A stretch of DNA of 64,000 nucleotides, from contig MU004237.1 of NCBI GenBank assembly GCA_010405405.1, forward strand, positions 600,014-664,013, given 5' to 3'. The position numbers and the translations under genes are program-made. Positions 6,767-42,007 of this stretch are shown here, in pieces; position 1 is the first letter of the stretch; every line of letters begins with the position of its first letter. The notes beneath the pieces are model-generated. The model worked only from the letters and a program-made list of their open reading frames with translations, was not told the DNA's origin and did not search any database. Origin of the DNA: Microthyrium microscopicum. Lineage: Eukaryota; Ascomycota; Dothideomycetes; Microthyriales; Microthyriaceae.

Positions 6767-9700
6767 ATGGCTGAAATCATCGCAGGGGTTTCTATTGCCT
6801 CTAGCTTCATTCAACTTGTCGACTTCGGAACGAAGGTCGTATCCAGGCTCCACGATTATAGATCCGACTTCCAAGAACTGCCCAAAGTATTTCGTGATCT
6901 GCATATACAGCTTCCATTACTGTTGAGAACAATTGAAGCGCTTCGATCAAAGGCAGAAAGTTCAACGCTTCCGGGACTAAAGGATCACCTGGTGCCAATT
7001 CTGGATGGGTGCAAGAATGAGCTCCAATCGCTCGATCAGCTACTAACTGACCTTCTACCGGTGACAAACTCATGGAGAGAAAAGCTAAAGAAAGCCTCTC
7101 GAAGTATCTTCCAGGAGTCCAAACTCGAAAGGATGCATAAAACTCTTCGACAATATACCGACACTTTGATGTTCTACAGCATCGCGGAGGCACAGAATGG
7201 ACCAAGTACATTAGGTACTATGCAATTCGGTTTCCTCCAGTATGTTTTATGGTGCTAACTGCTGATAGGGGAAGAAGTCGACACGCAGAACGAGGCAACT
7301 GAAGCCGAAATGGAGAGAATCCGACGATGGGTAAAAGGCCCAGATCCACACATCAACTATCAGAGCGCCCTGAACCAAAGACTTGACAAAACCGGCTCTT
7401 GGTTTCTAGAAGGCAATGAATACCAGAACTGGAAAGCCCAGGACAAGTCCCTGCTGTGGGTCAATGGTATTCCAGGCAGCGGGAAGTCGGTGTTGAGCGC
7501 TTCCATCATTGAAGACGTTCAGCAGTCCCGCCCGGGACTAGCCCTTGCTTTTTTCTATTTCAGTTTCAACGATCCAGAGAAGCAACTATTTGACAGCTTC
7601 TGCCGCTCGATCTTCCAACAGCTTACTCGTCAAGCTCTGATAATCCCCAAACCCATTAAAGAGCTGTTCAGGTCGTGCACTTCAGGGCGTCGAACACCAA
7701 CGGTATACGAGTTGGTAAAGGTCTTGGGTGATTTGGTAGGAGCGTTTCCAGGATGCTACCTCATAGTCGATGCTCTAGATGAAAGTAGCGAGCCTGACAA
7801 CGTCCTACGCCTCCTAAAAGATCTCTGGTCTCGTGAGAACATTCCGCATCTACATATCTTGATGACCAGTCGGAAAGAGCGAGACATAGAACTAAGCTTG
7901 AGTGGATTTGTGGCCGATGAGGACTGTGTCAGTCTTCAAACGAAGTCAGTCGACGAAGACATTCGTCGGTATGTCCAGTACTGTTGGGACCATGATCCAA
8001 AGTTCAAGAAGTGGAGGAAGAATTCAGAGCTCAAAGCGCAAGTTGAAAAATCCTTGATGCTTAAGGCAAGCGGCATGTAAGTTGAATGCTTCTCTGGAGG
8101 GAGGCACTGTCTGATTCTGCTAGGTTTCGATGGGCATCGTGCCAGATGGATGAGCTCAGGAAGTGTATCAACGTCAAACAACTTCGCAATGCCTTAGTCA
8201 GCTTGCCAAAGGATTTGGATGAGACGTACGAGCGGATATTGTGTGGGATTGAAGAACAAAATCGCGAATATGCACTTCGAGTTCTACGATGGCTGGCCTT
8301 CGCCAACAGTACCCTCACGACTCTAGAAGTTGCGGAAATAGTTGCGATTGATGCTGAAGGTGAGGGTGCATTTGATAAAGACGAGGTTCTATCCGACCCG
8401 GAAGATATCATCGCACTCTGCTCAAGCCTCGTGACCATTCGAGAAAGCGCAGTGGTTCTCGCACATTACTCCGTTCAAGAGTACCTGGTATCTTCACGCG
8501 CATGCCAAGGACCGGCCAAACATTTCGCCCTTGAAGCAAGACATTCAAATGCGATCGTGGCTTGTGGATGTCTCATGTATTTGCTGCACCTTGCTGATGG
8601 TAGCATGCACGATCTCAAGAAGCTCAAACTATTCTACCCGTTGGCTTTATATTCAGCCCGCCAATGGTGGACTCATGCGAGCCAGGCATCTGAGAGTTGC
8701 GCTGATAGGATCTGCATATTGGCCAACAAACTCGATGGCAATTACCGCGGCTTTACTATATGCCTCTCTTTACACGACCCCGATGACAACAATAACCAAG
8801 GTCGGAGAAGTACGAATGAGAAGCCAACTCCAGAGCTGTTGTATCATGCAAGCTGCGCAGGTATCATTCCCTTGATACGGCAGCTGATGTCAGCTGGAGC
8901 AAATGTCAACCATGCGGGCGGCTACCTCGGAACCTCACTTCAAGCCGCGATTGTAAAGAAACACTCACCGGCTGTAAAGATGCTTCTCGCTGGTGGTGCA
9001 CACGTTGATGTATGCGGAGGGCGGTACGGATCTGTACTCAATGCTGCATGTGCCACAAACTCGGAGAATATAGTGCAGCAGCTGATTGTTGCTGGTGCAG
9101 ATGTGAATCTTCAAGCAGATACGCATGGCTCGCCTCTGCAGGTAGCATGTTGCACTGGATCTGATAAAGTCTTGCAACTGCTATTGAAAGCCGGAGCAAA
9201 TGTGAATGGCCCCCAACCTTTTAACGACAAATTTAACCTATCTAGAGCCGGGGCGTACAGTCCTTTGCAGATCGCAGCATTCTGCGGCTACACCACGGTT
9301 GTAGAGAAACTCCTCGCGGCTGAGGTTGAAGTAGATCTCACCCCGAGTAATCCCGAGCACATTGCGAAAACCTCCACGGCCGTCCAGTTAGCAGCTGGCA
9401 AAGGCTTCTATGAAATAACAGAGAAGCTGATTGCCGCAGGAGCCGATATCGATCGAAAAACAGCCAGCAGTCCACCTGCTCTTGCCAGAGCCTGTGAAGC
9501 CAAGCATGAGAACATTGTCAGGCTACTAATCCATGCTGGGGCTGATGTGCTTGACTCCGCCACGCTCTTTACTGCTGTCAGATGCGGGAACGAAGCAGTC
9601 ATCCAACAGTTTCTAGCCGCAGAAGCTCGTGTTGGCCCACTCTTTGTGGCCCGGAATGATACTTCCTCAGAGCAAGACGACACATTTGTGAGCCCCCTTG

Positions 9701-10596
9701 TTGCCGCAGTCGTAGAAAACAATCAACGTCTGTTTGAGCATCTTCTCAAAGCTGGAGTTGATCCAAATGCGTCCGGATGGACTGTATATTGCTTTGAAGA
9801 AGCTTTTCCTAAGCGAGACATAATACAAAACGACTTGCTACGACGACCGATAACTCCTCTATATGCCGCTTCGTGCCTTGGCCATGTAGCGATGGTGGAA
9901 AGGCTTGTCGCGCACGGAGCTGATGTAAACAAAAGGTCTCAGCATGACTACTGTTATGCTCTTCAAGCTGCAGTATATGGAATGCATGCTGAGATTGTCA
10001 AGCTGCTAATCAAAGCCCGCGCTAACGTTAACCAAATTGGTGGGTTTTATTCCACTGCTCTCAAGGCAGCGGTATTTGCAAACGCCCGTGTAGAAGAGTT
10101 CAGCTACTTGTTCAAGCACTCCAAAGGAATGAAAGAAAACAGTCTTCAAATCCTAGATCTACTACTGGAAAGCGGAGCAGATGTCGATGCCGCTTGGGGC
10201 AGATATGGCACCGCTCTAGGCGCAGCGACGTACTGCAACTTGGCTCCAATCGCCTATAAGCTTATTGACCTAGATGCAGATGTAAATCGATGCGGAAATG
10301 GCACAGAGCCGACTGAAGATGAAGTGCAGTTATGGGGTATTGAACGCATGGGCGACCCAGCTCACAAAGATCGGGTTACACCGTGGCAGCTAGCAATACT
10401 GAACGGATCCCAAGCTGTGGCACAAATACTCCACGACGCTGGTGTAGACAAGTCGCCTGTGCCGCTAGCGAACGGGCACTTTACTGTGCTTTGGGATAGG
10501 CATGTTGCAGCACCGTTAGCGAATCAGATACGTCGATACGCACATCTTGGTAACTCTCCTGCTACAGTGCTTGTAGAAGGACCACGGCCGAGTTAG
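6767..10596 (+). CDS. NLR-like protein: SesA-type N-terminus, NACHT NTPase, ankyrin repeats
   Basis: Fungal NLRs act in nonself recognition and programmed cell death. Exons 6767-7214, 7269-8076 and 8124-10596 give 1242 aa. Both introns (54 and 47 nt) keep frame, and the second restores the family motif GMFRW. Residues 1-150 resemble the helical SesA-type N-terminal domain (start MAEIIAGVSIASSFIQLVD). NACHT follows with Walker A GIPGSGKS (216-223) and Walker B LIVDALDE (314-321). A winged-helix-like region comes next, then about 14-16 ankyrin repeats (about 655-1205) with repeated AGANVN/AGADVN and RYGSxL motifs. The repeats are diverged from one another, so they do not look freshly amplified. 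The reading frame looks intact. The trigger is unknown. Confidence 0.88.
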
Positions 10597-20305: not shown

Positions 20306-20992
20306 TCAATCAATTATTGTCATATTAGTAGATAATGCTGTGCAATCCATCGGTATAGTCAAAACCGGTCCCTCTCCAACTTCTGCCTGACTGGTAGTAT
20401 AGCCCGGATTAAACGCCATAATCTGTCCAACAGTGGTCCCAACCCGGGCAGCCAAATCTCTATAAGTACCATATGTCAAATGATACGGCTGTACGACACA
20501 TTGACTTGGTGAGCATTGCGGAATTTTGATAGTCATACCAGGATTCAGCGGTGTAGTCACTGTAATGTTGCCACCCTGTCGACGCCGAGTATTCTTCATT
20601 AATGTTGCAGTAGTGATGTTGAACTTCTTCAGTGCGATAGACTCCAATGTGTCGCCTTGTACTGTTTGGTATGTGTGTGGACCTCCGAGAATGCAAGTTG
20701 CAGTTGCGTTTTGTCTTGCCAGTAGGCAGGAATTGTTGTCTGGTTTGCAGACTTCGCTGGGAATAAGGAGAGTTCTTCCTGGATGTAGAGCAAGGTCTGC
20801 GTCGGCCATTCGGTTTGCTCGAGCAATATCGCAAACTCCGCGTTTCATGGCTTTGGAAATAGTCAAGATTGTGTCATTGGCTTGAATCCGATATATTCTT
20901 TCTGCTATGTTGAGGGCCTTGTCAGTACAGCTTTGTGATGCTGCCTGAGCAATAAAAACTAAGAACAAACAGCAAGTCGTTTTGAGAAACAT
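20306..20992 (-). CDS. Secreted three-LysM protein (LysM effector type)
   Basis: This is a single-exon 228-aa protein. Residues 1-19 form a signal peptide (LFLVFIAQAAS). Three LysM-like modules follow, at about 33-77 (YRIQANDTILTISKAM to LLIP), 106-152 (YQTVQGDTLESIALKKF to IKIP) and 168-213 (YGTYRDLAARVGTTVGQI to LTIP). The mature part has about eight Cys residues and several N-glycosylation sequons (NAT, NIT, NMT). LysM domains bind chitin and related glycans, and secreted LysM proteins of plant-associated fungi shield hyphae or hide chitin fragments. There is no catalytic domain. Whether this one is an effector or a wall protein is not decidable here. Confidence 0.82.
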   Translation of the reverse strand: MFLKTTCCLFLVFIAQAASQSCTDKALNIAERIYRIQANDTILTISKAMKRGVCDIARANRMADADLALHPGRTLLIPSEVCKPDNNSCLLARQNATATCILGGPHTYQTVQGDTLESIALKKFNITTATLMKNTRRRQGGNITVTTPLNPGMTIKIPQCSPSQCVVQPYHLTYGTYRDLAARVGTTVGQIMAFNPGYTTSQAEVGEGPVLTIPMDCTALSTNMTIID

Positions 20993-24087: not shown

Positions 24088-27000
24088 ATGTCAAACTGGG
24101 CGGCTGCATTTAGCGAAGGTGGTGCAGAGGAAGACGGCCTCGAAGAAGACGAAGTATGGGAATCCACTGAATGCGATGCTTGCGGTAGCTTTGATTCGGA
24201 TCTCTACTACTGTTTATCATGCGTACAGACCTTGTGCGATACTTGCTGGGAAGAAGTGCCTGCTCATGGGAGAAACAAATCGAGGTTCCGTTTCCCGAAT
24301 ATTAATGGCATGAAGCACGAAAAGACTCCACATCATGTTCTCAAAGCCATACAGCCGGCATTTTTCACTCCTCCTAATGATGCTTCGTATGAGGCTATGT
24401 TGAAGGAAGATGACCAGGCCTCTTGGTTTGGTTAGTATATCACTATATTTGTTGTTCTCAGCCTGAACAAAGCTGATCAACGGGCTTAGGAGTCCGTCGA
24501 GAGGAAGATGAGAAGCTACCCATTCTCCTGCAAGACCATGGTCGATTCCCGGAATTGATGGCGGCTTCTAGTATCGATTCTCGGAAGAAGTTTATGCAGC
24601 AAGGAAAAGGTCCAACAAGAGTCGTCAAACGAACCCCAATACTAGTTTCCTTTGTCGGACAGACTGGTGCAGGCAAAAGTACATTGATCCGTCTATTAAT
24701 CGGCTTGAAGTTGGACCACAAGACCAGCAATGGCGTACGTCCACAGCTCCCTGTCATTGGCAGCGCCATCTCCGACATAGCTACTTCATCGGACGTTCAT
24801 TTATATCCAGATCCTGCCACCATTCAAACCGAAAATCCTATACTCTATGCCGATAGCGAAGGCCTAGATGGTGGAGAGCGTCTATCTTTATCAGCTTCGT
24901 TTCGCTCACTATCAACAAGCGATAGCATAGCGCCACCTTTTGTTTCTGAGGGATCATTTAGAGCTGCGTTCTGCTCAGAACGGGAACTCGTTTGGTCTGA
25001 TGATCCTTCACGTCGTACCAGAGACTTTATAGTCGCTCAGTTGTACTCGAGGCTGCTCTTTACTTTCTCAGATGTTATCGTCTTCGTTCAGAGAAACGCC
25101 AGGTACGTATTGATCAGAGTTGCGCGATTTGATCCTAATAATTATATTCAGAGTAATCGAAGGCGTCATCGAGACCATGGTAGAATGGGGTAAAGCTGAT
25201 GAAAAGAATTCTCTCTGGTATAAATAAGCTGATGTATTGATAGCTGCCGCCGCACTGGAAACAGCATACAATCAACCTATCTTGCCTTACGCAGTTGTAG
25301 CACTCAACGCAACAGACGAATCTACGCCTGAGGAACTATGGGATGTCAACGTATCAACTAGTGCCATTCTGAGCTCCTTTTCTGGAATCCTTTACAAGAA
25401 TCTGGTCTTCAAACGACACGTAAAGCTTTGGGCAGACAGAGGCAAGATTGTTACCACACTAGACGAGCTATTGGGCTGTTACTTTTCTAAAGTCCAAATC
25501 ATACGAATTCCCACAAGTCAAAGTCCGAATCTGATGTACAAGCAAGGCCATCAACTGTACTCGGAAATCTCCGCTGCTGGTAGTCTGGCTCAAGTTCGAA
25601 AATCACACTTACGAATGCTTCTCAATTCTCGCCAGCTTCAAGCATATCTGGATCGTGCGTTTGACCACTATTCTCGAACTCTTGAACATCCATTCGACTT
25701 TGTTCAAGCTTCTTTCCTGAACTCGCCTGTCCCTAATAACTTGGGTGACAACATTCTGGAATTCGCGATTGTAAGCAAATTGCAAAGTTATTTTTGCCCT
25801 TTACTTGCCATTGTTCAGTGCTATTACTTTAAGGATACTGCCAGAACACTCCTCACATTAAATGACGCTGGCAAATTTCGTGCTAGACAATGAGATAATT
25901 GTTACTGACCAGCAATTAGGCACTCATGAATCACCAAATTGAGGAGAAGCAGCCACGCGTTGGCAAGGAAATATTTGAGAAGCTCAGTCCACTAATTGCA
26001 TCCTGTATCATGATTGATGCTATCCGTCACAGTGTTCTTGGTACTATTTTACTTTTGTCTTCGTACACAAATAACCAAAAGATCAACCTTTACTAACATG
26101 GCAGCTAGGAACCGCAGACAGAATATTTCCAGAGTATTTGAAGCACCTGGACACTGCCCTGCAACGTTTTTGTAACTATCACTGGCGCTGTGAATACAAC
26201 ACAACGGGACAAATACCGGCCCACTTGCAGGCTCATTTGAACGCAGTAGGTTTTCTCTTATGCTTCATATGGTCCCAACAAGATCACATATGCGCCCTCG
26301 TACTACGGAATTATGCTAACCTACGCGCGGGTTCATTTTCACAGAAATATGCGAGCCACCGCAATCATTTACAGATGTAATAATACTCGCATTGGGCATA
26401 CTTCCAAAGGCCATCAGCTCCAGAGCGGCATTATATTCAAGCATGGCGAATACTTCTCAAACATCACGTTTGCCAACTATAGAGATACATTTCATTCCTT
26501 GGTGTTCATGCACTTGTCAGATATACTTTCGAAGCTTGGCAGCAATTCAGACGACTCCTTGTTACAACAAGCTCGAGCACATCGACTCCATTCCGACGTT
26601 CTTAAATCATTCTATTCGACTTACAAATCGGCAGAGACTCTAGGAATTCCCAGTCATAACATCTGTTTAGGCTGCTTGTCAGGAAGTCCCGAGCATGTAC
26701 TTTCTTGTGAAGACGTTCTTTGCTCTGCATGTATAGAAGCTTACGGCCGACCTCAGGGTCGGAATGCTTATGTACTTGAGACCTGCCCCATTGGTTTTCA
26801 GCACGAGAGTACAATCGAACCTCAATACATTTGCTCGAAGCCAAAAAATGCTGGGGTTCGATTACTATCCCTTGAAGATGGTGCTCTCCACAGCATTACT
26901 CAATTAGAAGTGCTTCGCCGGGTCGAGCTCGAGCTCCTGGGCAAGATCTCTGTGAGATCACTGTTCGATATGATATCCGCAAACGGCATGGCATCGATTA

Positions 27001-28405
27001 TTGCGCTAGCCATTGCTACCCAGGAGTGGTCGCTAGACGAATGTGCCAGTAAATTTCTGGACATAGCGACACAATCATTCAGCCAGTCAAATCTTCGAAA
27101 AACTCGAAAACTTCTTGGAGTCAATAAAGGGGCACTTGCGGCGAAATATCGATCTTCGTCATTGGAATCTAGTCTACAAAAAGCGTTTGATTCTGATGCT
27201 GTGTTGTTCGGACCTGAGTCTAGGTGTTTGGGGAATACTTCGATACCAAAAGTCATGATTACTTCAGAGAGCGCCGATGGTGGAACTACTGTGTTCACTA
27301 ATTATCATCGTGGAAACTCAAAATCATGTAAGTAACATTGTACCCTGACAGTTACATCTCTGACGTCCATTCCAGTGCCGTATAAGGTAGTGCGACCGAA
27401 TTCGGTCAAAGGAGAAATGAAGATCTGGGAAGTGTAAGTTCTTACACGATTTGCAATAACACACATCCCAAAGCTTACCTCATAAAGTGCTCGAGCATCA
27501 CTGACGTTTTCGGGTCACTTCAAACCCTTCAAGCACGATGCCACAGAAAGGACCTACACTGGCCATGGAGGATATCCATCGGATCCAATCGAAGTCATGC
27601 AACATGAGTCAGAGCGACTTTGGCCATCTCCAACGTCTACATTTCCAGACGCTGTGCTATCAATTGGTACCGGAACAGGCTTGAACAATTCGAAATTCAA
27701 GTTCTCCAAAGAAGCGACAGAGCGAATGATGTGGAAGCCCGCCAGAGCAGCAACTAGCGAAAAGCCCGAAGAAGAGCCCCACGACTCAGCCTGGAACCAA
27801 TTCCTTGGTACTTTACCTCCAAACTATCCTAGCTCCAAATATAGTCGTCTAGATGTGCAGATACCTCACATTTTGCCTGAAAAAGACGATGTCAGTGCGC
27901 TCCTCGCCTTTCAAAAGACTGTGCGAGCCAATATTCGACAGGAAGAGATCAGAGAGATTGCAATGAAGCTTCTCGCAGCATTATTCTACTTCGAAAGAAC
28001 CGGGATCATAGATGAAGTATCGGACGAGGAATTCTATATATATGGTAATATTGCCTACTCTGGAAGCATCTTTTTTCCTTTGCAAGACTGACTTTGTCGA
28101 TAGGAGAAATTCACTGCCGACTGCCTAACGGAAGATCAGAGGTCAAGCAGTTGGCCGACCTCTTGACAGACAAGAAGTTCGATAATCCAGCTTTCATCTT
28201 CCAAGAAACACATGGACCAGAGCAGTGTTTTCCCATTCCTTCCTGCTCATTAGACGATATGCAGAGATCTTGCCGCTTCCGACTTCCAGGAATACGGATC
28301 CGACTCTCTCGCAGCATGGCTGAGGTAGATGCTGTCCTCAGGGTCACGCCTGAGGAGAAATTTTCTATCAGCGGATTTCCACGAGTCATGCAAGAGACTG
28401 AATGA
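24088..28405 (+). CDS. Zinc-finger / P-loop GTPase / RING-like / degenerate patatin protein
   Basis: Exons are 24088-24430, 24490-25102, 25152-25189, 25244-25770, 25920-26040, 26109-26245, about 26341-27327, 27376-27433, 27488-28044 and 28104-28405 (about 1227 aa). The layout is a B-box-like zinc domain (CDAC, CLSC, CDTC), a GTPase-like domain with P-loop GQTGAGKS (about 171) and switch-like YADSEGLD, a helical linker, a RING-like cluster (CLGC, SCEDVLCSAC, about 703) and a patatin domain from about 763. This matches the fungal multidomain FabD/lysophospholipase-like family. The patatin catalytic motifs are replaced: EDGALHS for the oxyanion DGGGxRG, ANGMAS for GTSTGG, and GHGG for the DGG/DGA acid. 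The join between exons 6 and 7 does not keep frame with the best splice sites (GTAGGT, TTTCACAG). It is either a pseudoenzyme or an early decaying copy. Confidence 0.7.
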
Positions 28406-30176: not shown

Positions 30177-31064
30177 GATGGATACCGTGTAGTTTCAAGC
30201 GACCAAAAGGCTCAGAGGCGAAAACACCACGGTGAGATCGTGATATATGCCAAATTTCCAGTGATTTCCTGACCTGCTGGGCTTGCGAGGATGAGTTGGA
30301 ATTGTGATTATAATTTGCGTGCTAGAATGCTATAGTCCCAAAATTTGGTATTTCAAATCTATAAAGATGGTCAATACACATTAGCTCTATAAGAACTTTC
30401 CTGTCGAATAACAACACAGGAGACATACTCTGATGGACGTACCTGCTAGAATGATGGAAGGCAGGTAGTACTTACCTGTACAATGCTAGTGTTTTCCAAG
30501 GCGTTCAGTTTTAGAGGACGGTCCAAAGTTGTAACAAGTCAACAAGTCAACCCAAATGCAAATGGCTACCGGTAGCGTCAATGATAGTACGCGTTTGTCT
30601 AGAGAGTCGTTCCAGCGATTTCATAGCCACGATATTTATAGGTCTAAGAGGTGAATAAAAAGCACTCATGCATGCAGCAGATAAGCTAAAAGCTAACCTT
30701 CGTACCTTCGTACCTCTGGTGACCCATTGCCATCAAAATTCTACTCTACCATCACGGTCACCTACCAACAGCATCAAACAACAACAAATCATGATGCTCC
30801 AAAGCTCGAGTTCTTTGACTGTAAGACCATGATGGTTGCTCTTTACACATCTTTGCTTTGTCGCGGTTTGTCCTTCCCCGCAAAAAGTGGGCCTGCATGG
30901 CGGCTTCTTTTGTTTGCGTCTCCTGAAGATCTCTAAATAAGTATTTTGGTTCCTTTCATCATACATTCCCCTCTTCCTCTTTTTCATCCATCTATCGCAG
31001 AAATATTTTGATCGGGCACTTCTCAAGATACCTACTCGATTACTCTTCCAAGAGCGAAGAGGAA
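30177..31064. other. Divergent promoter region, P450 and copia-derived gene
   Basis: This is about 0.9 kb between two divergent starts. A short CAAGTCAA tandem occurs near 30536. No coding frame, repeat family or RNA gene is convincing. Confidence 0.4.
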
Positions 31065-32057
31065 ATGGCTCCCAATGCCCCAACCGGAGAAGCCTACAAC
31101 GTGGACTGGATCGTTTCCAATACCTCTGACATTCACGCAACCAACAACCGTGACTGGTTCACGGCCTACACTCCCTTCGAGACTACATTCGGCACGATAT
31201 ACACCAAAGAACACAGTGTCAAGGCTTTGGGCATTGGTGAAGTGCATCTGAACGTCAGACTCTACAAGCAGAAGAAAGGCAACAAGCCTAACTCCAAGAT
31301 CCTTGTTCTAAAGGATGTCCTCTACGCTCCTAGTCTTACCTGCAATATTCTTGCTACCCCAGTCCTCTCCGAGCATAGTCTCAATTTTGTTGGCGGAGGT
31401 GGCTACTTGACCGACGGAGATGGTAAACGCGCTGCCCTGATCGAGACACTGGTGCTTCCGCGCCTGCGTCTTCATGGCCAGCCCGCTGGAAAGTCCAGCC
31501 TTGATCCCAATACAATGTACTTGATGAATGCAAGTTGGTCAGCTCCTGAGCGAGCTCGCTGGGAGAGACAGAACCCAAATCGCACCGCACCTTCCTTGGG
31601 CGAGGCGCCATACACTGAGGAGGAGAATGCCTGGTTGAACAAACACTACGACGGAGAGTTCAAATTCCTTCGCACATTGGGCTTGTCAATCCACAAAGAG
31701 GAGGATCGTGAGGAGGGTCGTCTCATTGCAAGAGGTTTCATGGAGGATGATGCCAAAACACAGACCAGCTCAACTTCTCAGGCGTCGAAACAGCCCACAG
31801 TCGACGTCGAAATGATCGACCCGAACGATGAGACCAGTGATGATGATGATGATGGCGATACATTTTTGCAGGAATTGGAAGATGATCCCATGAGCCACCT
31901 TGCGGACTACAACTTTTCTGCCAAAGAGCTCAAGTGGATCAAGAAGAACTACAAATACTCTTCCAGATTCATGTTGAGCTACCGTCTCAAGCCGTTTGAG
32001 CAAGAAGATTGCAACACTGCTAAAGAACTTATCAAAAGTCTGATGGCTGGACCGTAA
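31065..32057 (+). CDS. Domesticated Ty1/copia-derived beta-barrel domain protein
   Basis: This is an uninterrupted 330-aa frame. The ATG at 31065 is preferred over an open extension to 31008. Residues about 10-110 resemble the protease-like beta-barrel region of Ty1/copia Pol: VDWIVSNTSDIHATNN, then LKDVLYAPSLTCNILA. No reverse transcriptase, integrase, RNase H or long terminal repeat lies nearby, so this looks like a single domain kept by the host, a fossil of an old element. The C-terminal half is a different charged region with two similar segments (YTEEENAWLNKHYDGEFKFL and AKELKWIKKNYKYSSRFML) and an acidic run (DETSDDDDDGD). The function is unknown. Confidence 0.65.
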   Translation: MAPNAPTGEAYNVDWIVSNTSDIHATNNRDWFTAYTPFETTFGTIYTKEHSVKALGIGEVHLNVRLYKQKKGNKPNSKILVLKDVLYAPSLTCNILATPVLSEHSLNFVGGGGYLTDGDGKRAALIETLVLPRLRLHGQPAGKSSLDPNTMYLMNASWSAPERARWERQNPNRTAPSLGEAPYTEEENAWLNKHYDGEFKFLRTLGLSIHKEEDREEGRLIARGFMEDDAKTQTSSTSQASKQPTVDVEMIDPNDETSDDDDDGDTFLQELEDDPMSHLADYNFSAKELKWIKKNYKYSSRFMLSYRLKPFEQEDCNTAKELIKSLMAGP

Positions 32058-39694: not shown

Positions 39695-42007
39695 TTAGAC
39701 TAAGGTGATATCCTCCAAGTCTTCTCCTGTCCACTTCTGTCCCTCCATCATCGCGTGAATAAAAGCTGGACCAACATGGGAGTAAGCCCCAGATGCCATG
39801 CGCCGTAGAATAAGTGGCATCGCTATTCCAGACCCGAGCATTACATGATCTCCAACGGCAATACTTCGAAATGCTGTTCCTAACAGCCCATCTGATGTCA
39901 CGAAGAGAACCCTTCCAAACAACTTGTCACAGATATCTCTATGGAAAGTTACTGATGTATTTTGAAGCCTTATGAGGTCTCGCCAGTGTAGCAGCTGCTC
40001 ATGAGTGTCAACCATCATAGAGTTTGCAGTGACTAGAGACTGAAACCAGTAATTGAACACATCAGACTCCTCTGGTGGCACACGAGACATGACTCGAGCA
40101 TAGAGAACCTCATGAACGGCACTGTGAATCGTGTCTGATTCTTTTTGCAGCCTCATTCGAAGTCTAATCGTAGTAAAAGCATCGAAGAAAGTTTGGGCAA
40201 CATCTTGTTCTGCGTCAAAAGGACTGGAACAATATAATACTGTGCCACGAAAACATCCACGTATAACTAGTCGCGAATTCTCCATCAATCTCCACACCGG
40301 CAAAGATTTAGATGTAGTTGCATGGCCATCCACACTGTAGACACAAGCAGGATCCAGCCAAGCTCTTGAGGGTGTGTGAGCTAAACTCCAATCTGGAGTC
40401 CAAGAAGTGGCGTTTAGCAGCCCAGGAAGACCAGCATCTAAAAGTAAGTTTAGTGACCCTCCCCAGTGCAAAAGGGCCAAGAACAGCTCTTGATAAACCA
40501 GTCCGACGGGCTTCTCATAGCTGACTAGTGCAATGCCGACCCCCAAATCTTTCAGTACGCCATACAGCCCATATGATTTATCTCTAGGATCTTTGCATTG
40601 ACGGGTACGGATGGCGCGCTGGATAGAGAGAAACATAGATAGGTCTATAGTCTTAGGTAGCTTTTTGTCTGGTGAGCCTGGTACCAACTGTAAGGGAGAC
40701 ATGAAATTGAAGAACATGATGCAAAACATTGCGACGAGGGACAAACTGGTGATAGGCCAAAAGATTTTGTCGACATGAGAATCCGAATTCGTAACAATGT
40801 AACTTGTGTCGAAAGTTCCATTCAGGTACAAAACTTCCACCTGACCTGTGTGGTGAAAACGATGAAATATACCTTTGTTTTCGGAATACAAGACCATGAT
40901 CGTGATAAGCGAACCCATGAGCAAAAGGAGGATCACAGTGTGCACTATTCGCAGAAGAGCTCTGACCATTTTGTTGGCAAGAGCCTGGTAATGGAAGAAT
41001 GAAATCCCCGGACGTCGGTTTGCGGATTCCGGATCCAGTTTTTGTCGCGGAGCTGGAATAAGGCGCCGAACCTGGCGGTTGTTCCAATGCGACTTTCGCT
41101 CGAAGTTCATCCAGAGCTGAATAATTGACATCCAGATATCGTATTGTGTAGGGGCTATTGCCTGTATTGTTTTGCTGTTGGCTGCATACCATTCCCAGGT
41201 TCCAAGCACAAGTCCTCGAATAAAATCGTTCCAGGTAACCATTTGCGTGCCACAGATTACTACTACATTACGCGCCAGGATGATCTCCTGTAAGGTCCAT
41301 ATACGTTCAGCCCAGTCGCATGATAGGAGCGTTTGAAAGTCTTCCGCCTGGAATCGCTTATCGAAGCGTCGACTTTGGATTTGATCTAAATAGTCCGTCA
41401 TAACGTATTTGTTGTTGCTCACAGCAAAGCACTTACCCTGAAGTACGCCAACTGGCGCCAGAAATGTCCAATACAGATCTTTGATGGAGAAACAAGCACT
41501 CTTCATTCGCCCGCTCATAGTCGGCGCTGATTTGAGTTCCATGTCTTCCAGACACCGAACAAACTTTGGTGTGTAGCGAATGCAGTCCATTGCTCTGTCG
41601 GTCTGAGCCGTCCCCTGTCCAAGCCAGAGGAACACGGTTTCTGCCCATGAATATATCTCTTCCATTAAAGGGATCTGGATAGCCTTTTCAGCATTGTCCG
41701 ACTGGTTGATAGAGACAGCATCGACCCATATCGTGAGATGGCCGTAGAGCCTCCTTAGGGAAATGAGAGCTTGGTAACAATTGACCGTGACGGCAATGTC
41801 ATACCCGGAGCAACTAATCGTCGGATCGCTGTCTGTTTGAGGACCCCAGACATATGATAAGGCTGTAAAGCGCGGGCAGTCCGCCAGTGAAATAACGCGA
41901 AGGGTTGCTCGGAGTGCTGCCTGAGGGGAAGAATCAGGGTGAATGTCAAGAACCCGAGTCATTCGGGCTGCATCCAGAGGAAACTGACGATACAGACTCG
42001 AGTTCAT
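39695..42007 (-). CDS. HET-domain protein with two internal membrane segments
   Basis: This is an uninterrupted 770-aa frame. The N-terminal HET domain (about 45-160) shows FTALSYVWG, then LTIWVDAVSINQSDNAEKAI and YSWAETVFLWLG, the core of fungal heterokaryon-incompatibility proteins that can trigger cell death (TIR-like fold). The domain ends WAERIWTLQEIILARNVVVI. Unusually, two hydrophobic spans follow, at about 349-375 (IVHTVILLLLMGSLITIMVL) and 414-435 (SLSLVAMFCIMFFNFM), separated by a short loop. The C-terminal part has the family-like DKSYGLYGVL and a late GDHVMLGSG segment. It is likely membrane-anchored. The partner or trigger is unknown. Confidence 0.85.
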   Translation of the reverse strand: MNSSLYRQFPLDAARMTRVLDIHPDSSPQAALRATLRVISLADCPRFTALSYVWGPQTDSDPTISCSGYDIAVTVNCYQALISLRRLYGHLTIWVDAVSINQSDNAEKAIQIPLMEEIYSWAETVFLWLGQGTAQTDRAMDCIRYTPKFVRCLEDMELKSAPTMSGRMKSACFSIKDLYWTFLAPVGVLQGKCFAVSNNKYVMTDYLDQIQSRRFDKRFQAEDFQTLLSCDWAERIWTLQEIILARNVVVICGTQMVTWNDFIRGLVLGTWEWYAANSKTIQAIAPTQYDIWMSIIQLWMNFERKSHWNNRQVRRLIPAPRQKLDPESANRRPGISFFHYQALANKMVRALLRIVHTVILLLLMGSLITIMVLYSENKGIFHRFHHTGQVEVLYLNGTFDTSYIVTNSDSHVDKIFWPITSLSLVAMFCIMFFNFMSPLQLVPGSPDKKLPKTIDLSMFLSIQRAIRTRQCKDPRDKSYGLYGVLKDLGVGIALVSYEKPVGLVYQELFLALLHWGGSLNLLLDAGLPGLLNATSWTPDWSLAHTPSRAWLDPACVYSVDGHATTSKSLPVWRLMENSRLVIRGCFRGTVLYCSSPFDAEQDVAQTFFDAFTTIRLRMRLQKESDTIHSAVHEVLYARVMSRVPPEESDVFNYWFQSLVTANSMMVDTHEQLLHWRDLIRLQNTSVTFHRDICDKLFGRVLFVTSDGLLGTAFRSIAVGDHVMLGSGIAMPLILRRMASGAYSHVGPAFIHAMMEGQKWTGEDLEDITLV

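Follow-up and report, generated by a model that had tools for sequence, protein, structure and literature searches.

Within a 64,000-nucleotide stretch of the genome of the dothideomycete Microthyrium microscopicum (GenBank assembly GCA_010405405.1, contig MU004237.1, positions 600,014 to 664,013 of the forward strand; hereafter the window), one gene encodes a protein, BT63DRAFT_456762 (P0001), in which a zinc finger, a GTPase, a RING-like finger and a patatin domain follow one another from the N to the C terminus. The patatin domain is almost certainly catalytically dead, and the loss very probably goes back to one old, conserved lineage of pseudo-phospholipases. With modest confidence, P0001 is read here as a pseudo-phospholipase run by its GTPase, in an ascomycete family that combines a zinc finger, a large GTPase resembling guanylate-binding proteins (GBPs), a RING finger and a patatin domain. 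The chance that it works as a GTP-driven non-catalytic module is put a little below even.

Loss of the patatin active site

P0001 scored 28.2 bits against Pfam Patatin, barely over the cut-off of 27.7 and in agreement with the PNPLA labels carried by its relatives. The patatin-fold region was located at residues 724-1072; the first-pass annotation of the window, which had placed it at residues 760-1150, was right about the presence of the domain and wrong about its limits. The fold comparison that it proposed was performed, and the predicted domain resembles patatin-17, CapV and iPLA2beta.

Motif definitions for PNPLA proteins, as given in the available part of PMC12871566, include the GxSxG nucleophile elbow. 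When P0001 was aligned in register with active relatives, EDGALH stood opposite DGGGxR of the oxyanion loop, ANGMAS opposite GTSTGG of the elbow, and YTGHGGYP opposite YxDGAxYH of the acid segment, which agrees with the earlier statement that oxyanion loop, elbow and acid motif had each been lost by substitution. An intact GxSxG and DG[GA] elsewhere in the domain were also searched for. The motif search of the whole protein gave no GxSxG, and DG[GA] was found at residues 241 (by the GTPase G3 motif), 734 (within the oxyanion segment) and 867 (in a variable loop), in all three cases out of register with the catalytic Asp; relocation of the catalytic motifs within P0001 was rejected on these grounds. 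A profile of ten members of the dead clade described below aligned with CapV over a span that starts ahead of the oxyanion loop and ends beyond the acid motif; in this alignment Gly faces the catalytic Ser of CapV.

A single clade without the catalytic motifs

The homolog set comprised 188 proteins among the matches listed from three protein searches, two of which supplied the best 120 each. The Ser and Asp columns were readable in 165 of the 188 and gapped or unreadable in 23; both residues were present in 131 of the readable proteins, and the Ser position was occupied by Gly in 32, by Asn in one and by Arg in one. A motif table flagged 32 proteins without both motifs, namely the 22 members of the dead clade, three proteins placed elsewhere (P0041, P0103, P0117), six that are fragments or unreadable at the motifs (P0040, P0045, P0051, P0061, P0062, P0125) and one with a gene-model insertion (P0120). 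The clade was listed by hand from this table and the first trees and was tested afterwards; P0125 stood on the first hand list and was removed for coverage. Twenty-two of the 25 readable proteins with double motif loss, P0001 included, make up one exclusive clade.

Before the trees were built, 6 of 62, 8 of 150 and 8 of 188 rows were removed. In the 142-tip trees the 22-member clade was supported at 1.0 (full length), at 0.995 (GTPase half) and, as an unrooted split, at 0.88 (patatin part), and in the 180-tip tree at 1.0. A GTPase-half tree of 68 taxa, whose 46 actives consisted of 20 near ones picked by hand and 26 random draws, gave 99.7/100 for the Shimodaira-Hasegawa approximate likelihood ratio test and the ultrafast bootstrap (SH-aLRT/UFBoot).

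The elbow Ser is absent from all 22 members: the column holds Gly in 20 and Asn in P0068, and P0134 has an unalignable elbow stretch that may stem from a faulty gene model. The Asp column reads D by alignment in P0002, P0003, P0004, P0070 and P0134 and Glu in P0006, P0066, P0067 and P0069, and DG[A/G/S/C] stands there in none of the 22. GxSxG is missing from the patatin regions of 21 members, and that of P0063 lies in the acid segment. Some short-branched members (P0068, P0069, P0071, P0076, P0077) still carry DGGGIR, from which it seems that the Ser was lost first and the oxyanion loop last.

The clade covers 18 named species. The four whose class was looked up belong to Dothideomycetes or Leotiomycetes, and the remaining ones presumably belong to these two classes as well. 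P0001 clusters with the members from Leotiomycetes, with support of 0.953 at full length, 0.775 in the GTPase half and 0.746 in the patatin half, so that duplication or horizontal transfer is possible. The shared loss, the single clade and the kept fold (predicted for P0001 alone) are what identifies the clade as a conserved lineage, and the conservation of a dead patatin across it argues against simple decay. Recent decay of the whole clade was rejected, and decay was retained as a rival for the P0001 copy alone.

Further Ser losses occur in the family. A second group has GTGTGG at the elbow, and eight of its proteins (P0014, P0027, P0100, P0106, P0108, P0109, P0111, P0149) keep DGG or DGS; the ninth tip, P0117, has GTGSGG and SGA, and the support for the nine-tip group was 0.891. 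This group apparently lost the Ser independently of the dead clade. By a count made by eye, with gene models taken as annotated, the Ser losses outside the dead clade are those of P0041, P0043, P0103 and this nine-tip group. Gly for Ser was seen once more in the M. microscopicum genome, in a patatin without visible GTPase (L006; contig 4, 1134842-1135186) whose elbow is GTGTGG.

The GTPase half and the gene model

The P-loop and the DSEG switch that the first-pass annotation had reported as remaining were both located, and G1 and G3 recur throughout the dead clade (Table 1). GTPases of the GB1/RHD3 type are marked by G1 GxxxxGK[S/T], G3 DxEG and G4 RD. The candidate G4 of P0001, LNATD, sits at the end of a presumed strand, and the RD of guanylate-binding proteins is not there. 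The predicted fold of the GTPase half resembles guanylate-binding proteins and atlastins (GB1/RHD3 type; also RNF112, Sey1 and SMG9), with other GTPase families left possible by the fold searches. Pfam GBP was unmatched to E 1 with the exons and to E 0.01 with P0001, in searches whose HMMER filters discard most weak matches; Pfam returned sub-threshold P-loop families only for this half, and the fold search was more informative. No Pfam match to NACHT or NB-ARC was found in P0001 at E 0.01, and the protein does not classify as a fungal NLR (STAND). The N-terminal zinc finger gave sub-threshold Pfam matches only (CEBP_ZZ, B-box and others). The mapped coordinates, together with relatives of equal order, confirm the domain order that had been ascribed to a fungal multidomain family.

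The gene runs from an ATG at 24088 to a stop codon ending at 28405, and all nine introns have GT-AG boundaries. Coordinates of the gene, of its features and of the other elements mentioned here are collected in Table 1.

Table 1. Features of the P0001 gene, neighbouring genes and the relic (positions in the window unless a contig is named)
Feature	Position	Strand	Remarks
Whole gene, BT63DRAFT_456762 (P0001)	24088..28405	+	1188 aa; exon translation identical to P0001
Exons (n = 10)	24088-24430, 24490-25102, 25152-25189, 25244-25770, 25920-26040, 26109-26133, 26345-27327, 27376-27433, 27488-28044, 28104-28405	+	
N-terminal Cys/His zinc finger	24172..24267	+	C29, C32, C42, C45, C50, C53, H60; invariant in 10 aligned dead-clade proteins
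G1 / P-loop GQTGAGKS	24657..24680	+	G-x4-GKS in 22/22 dead-clade members
G3 DSEG	24852..24863	+	D[C/S]EG in 22/22 dead-clade members
Candidate G4 LNATD	25303..25317	+	Asn invariant across 85-sequence alignment; putative assignment
Intron 6 of public model	26134..26344	+	211 nt spliced out; one frame codes for a helix and a Cys that relatives conserve (HWRCEY, 26180-26197)
RING-like finger	26664..26732	+	conserved His replaced by Asp in P0001
Oxyanion segment LLSLEDGALHS	26862..26894	+	active form LDGGGxRG
Nucleophile-elbow segment ISANGMASIIAL	26973..27008	+	active form VGTSTGG; Gly in Ser position
Acid segment TYTGHGGYPSDP	27552..27587	+	active form YxDGAxYHNNP
Patatin core strand LSIGTGTG	27657..27680	+	retained
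NLR-like gene	6767-10596	+	NACHT/NPHP3_N and ankyrin repeats
LysM-domain protein	20306-20992	-	two LysM stretches
Pol_BBD fragment	31008-32057	+	about 1 kb past the P450 gene that flanks the P0001 gene
HET-domain protein	39695-42007	-	E 3e-26
Relic of second GTPase-patatin	contig 2, 1,055,238-1,056,808 (L017 3239-4809)	-	stop-ridden, AT-rich, RIP-like; RING-patatin half alone detected

The NACHT-ankyrin gene, the dead patatin and the HET gene place three immunity-type genes in about 36 kb. The N-terminal stretch of the NLR-like gene looks helical, and we take it to resemble fungal NLR N-terminal domains. The Pol_BBD fragment is presumably of Copia type.

Constraint on the two halves

For the column test, columns conserved at 90% or more in 133 actives were scored as retained when kept in at least 80%, and as lost when kept in at most 20%, of 21 dead proteins; P0134 and actives with an unreadable elbow were removed before the rate and column tests. 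The dead clade retained 98 of 119 conserved columns in the GTPase half and lost none. Run earlier on a smaller set of actives, the column test had given 96/115 retained and 0 lost for the GTPase half, and 33/73 retained and 10 lost for the patatin. In that smaller set the new common states of the dead clade were Glu729 to Gln (100%), Ser757 to Gly (95%) and Ser895 to Met (90%); Glu729 drops out of the 90% columns in the larger active set. The median terminal-branch ratio of patatin to GTPase was 1.29 for the dead clade (20 tips) and 1.01 for actives (83 tips).

Several observations weigh against reading P0001 as a maintained, GTPase-run pseudo-phospholipase. The patatin of the dead clade retained just 34 of 69 conserved columns and lost nine (G726, T756, S757, T813, T894, A897, D915, G916 and N921 in P0030 numbering). 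In three control clades of actives, with 13-14 members apiece, 63/72, 65/67 and 63/69 patatin columns were retained and 5, 0 and 3 lost; for the GTPase half the figures were 114/114, 115/122 and 111/118 retained and 0, 4 and 0 lost. By this comparison, relaxation in the dead clade is clear for the patatin and slight for the GTPase half. Since the active controls also lose patatin columns, the loss count alone is indecisive. Losses fell on 5 of 14 columns in the catalytic motifs and on 4 of 55 elsewhere (Fisher p 0.0135), and their concentration in the three catalytic motifs is only moderately telling. Summed branch lengths gave a patatin/GTPase ratio of 1.41 in the dead clade, against 0.86 in actives, and the GTPase-half branch of P0001 is the longest of the 21 members measured. 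The RING His is kept in 21 of the 22 clade members, P0001 being the sole loser, and the finger of P0001 does not fit the C3HC4 pattern. In intron 6, the donor and acceptor that look best by eye break the frame together, whereas other boundaries keep it; the public model consequently omits a conserved helix, and residues 555-564 of the predicted structure, which are of low confidence, coincide with this junction. The placement of intron 6 is uncertain, and gene predictors partly select for open models. Assembly and membrane binding, finally, are proposed from the predicted fold only.

Search for an active paralogue

The M. microscopicum assembly of 20 contigs was searched with the active homolog P0030. 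Of the seven matches obtained, four lay in the window gene and the other three, all weak, in the relic, in the L003 gene and in the L006 gene; no second intact GTPase-patatin was found in the genome with this query. The suggestion that the dead protein regulates, or acts as a decoy of, an active paralogue is thus unsupported in this species, where the search gave only the stop-ridden relic. Pfam Patatin had seven matches in the genome. By reading of their translations, L003 and L006 are GTPase-free patatins, and L005 and L007, which lie less than 600 bases apart, are one protein of the neuropathy target esterase (NTE) type; this typing covered these four, the other matches (L001, L002, L004) being on the minus strand.

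From the RING finger to beyond the elbow, pieces of the relic match active-type proteins, best P0032 and P0146, and the elbow Ser is still visible; of six queries, dead-clade P0006 was the only one to match the part that covers the acid motif. Four 500-base windows over the relic had a G+C content of 0.35-0.41 and TpA/ApT of 1.1-1.8, with a second index typical of repeat-induced point mutation (RIP) in three of the four, and a block with a G+C content of 0.24-0.29 lies nearby.

In at least 6 of the 18 named dead-clade species there is, in addition, a long homolog that has both Ser and DG[A/G]: Byssothecium circinans (P0030), Periconia digitata (P0009), P. macrospinosa (P0075, P0177), Tricladium varicosporioides (P0146, P0165), Zopfia rhizophila (P0154) and Polyplosphaeria fusca (P0172). 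P0154 bears an insertion next to the Ser, which may be an artefact of its gene model. In species that hold both forms the dead protein might act as a regulator, but such a role is not needed to explain the persistence of P0001 in M. microscopicum.

Proposed mechanism and alternatives

GTP binding drives self-assembly in guanylate-binding proteins and atlastins. In the favoured reading, the patatin of one old branch has lost its Ser, mostly to Gly, and its Asp motif, and long-branched members, P0001 included, have lost the oxyanion loop too, while the patatin fold and the GTPase were retained. GTP binding would then drive self-assembly, and the assembled dead patatins would offer a non-catalytic surface for a membrane, a lipid or a partner in place of the lipid cutting expected of active relatives. 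P0001 may accordingly hydrolyse GTP, assemble, bind a membrane or a partner, and serve in stress or immune-like responses.

Among the alternatives, dead and active proteins might co-assemble through the GTPase, the dead one damping or tuning lipid cutting. The co-occurrence of both forms described above suits this idea, as does the longest GTPase-half branch of P0001 in a genome whose other copy is ruined, which is what a regulator without a client might look like. The idea is considered unlikely, M. microscopicum having no detected intact active GTPase-patatin and yet an open public model of P0001.

Slightly less likely again is decay under way, in which the clade is real but the M. microscopicum copy is losing function. 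It stays a rival because of the long GTPase branch, the RING His loss and intron 6, and the oxyanion loop of P0001 is among the most eroded. Opposed to it are the open public model, the intact G1, G3 and zinc-finger residues, a confidently predicted fold and a patatin branch that is just sixth longest of 21; unlike the relic, moreover, the P0001 gene has no RIP signal (TpA/ApT 0.69).

Enzymatic activity through other residues, by a moved nucleophile or a different chemistry, is very improbable: the persistence of the predicted fold and the Glu found at the Asp position of four members speak for it, but the absence of the elbow Ser throughout the clade, the near-complete lack of GxSxG and the erosion of the oxyanion loop in many members speak against it.

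A broader picture, which we regard as speculative and rather doubtful, would be an ascomycete GBP-like immune GTPase that carries its own phospholipase effector, which an old lineage turned into a dead, partner-binding module; active forms would cut and dead forms would sense or scaffold, a division of labour like that between sensor and helper NLRs, and the Ser would have been lost separately about four more times elsewhere in the family.

Dead-clade members are called PNPLA or FabD/lysophospholipase-like in databases, and reading them as phospholipases is unwarranted. A patatin whose activity was lost once, and which was then retained in a lineage spanning two fungal classes, amounts to a natural experiment on the roles of a patatin other than cutting; it also bears on the question whether assembly driven by the GTPase is enough for function. 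If borne out, the GBP/atlastin-like GTPase fold would connect an uncharacterised fungal patatin family to the large GTPases of animal immunity.

Comparison with known systems

The literature searches, which mostly excluded subscription journals, yielded no description of a fungal patatin that is dead yet conserved, nor of a patatin fused to a GBP-like GTPase. Three fungal candidates were set aside on the available parts of their sources: Trichoderma PLP1 (PMC10714772) and VdPLP (PMC5867883) showed no tie to the P0001 domain order there, and the patatin-TPR architecture of ToxhAT (PMC6737239) differs.

The closest comparison is with active relatives. P0030 of Byssothecium circinans (36% identity over 87% of the query) and P0146 of Tricladium (32% over 97%) have the same domain order as P0001. 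Such relatives share G1 and G3 with it and are annotated as FabD/lysophospholipase-like or PNPLA; they keep GTSTGG, DGGGxR and DG[A/G], whereas P0001 has none of these in register.

Support from the literature for GTP-switched, binding patatin heads comes by analogy. The snake venom pseudophospholipase A2 differs from patatin in fold family and setting. In that system, according to the available part of PMC10211241, a dead phospholipase inhibits an active one by binding. Ser-to-Ala CapV still assembles filaments, according to the title of 9kej. With CapV, an effector of the cyclic-oligonucleotide-based antiphage signalling system (CBASS), with mammalian iPLA2beta (PLA2G6) and with patatin-17, the P0001 patatin shares its predicted fold; it differs from them in being fused to a GTPase in place of their sensors and in having Gly at the catalytic Ser.

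Patatin NLRs such as Neurospora PLP-1 likewise join a patatin to a nucleotide-binding domain. In the available part of PMC12881547, cell death by PLP-1 depends on an active patatin as well as on the nucleotide-binding motif of the NB-ARC domain, and PLP-1 self-interacts. PLP-1 carries NB-ARC and TPR, whereas P0001 carries a GTPase, a RING-like finger and a dead patatin. With guanylate-binding proteins, atlastins, RNF112, Sey1 and SMG9, P0001 shares the predicted G-domain fold, G1 and G3, and it stands apart from them by the Asn instead of RD at the candidate G4, by the lack of a listed Pfam GBP match and by the fused patatin.

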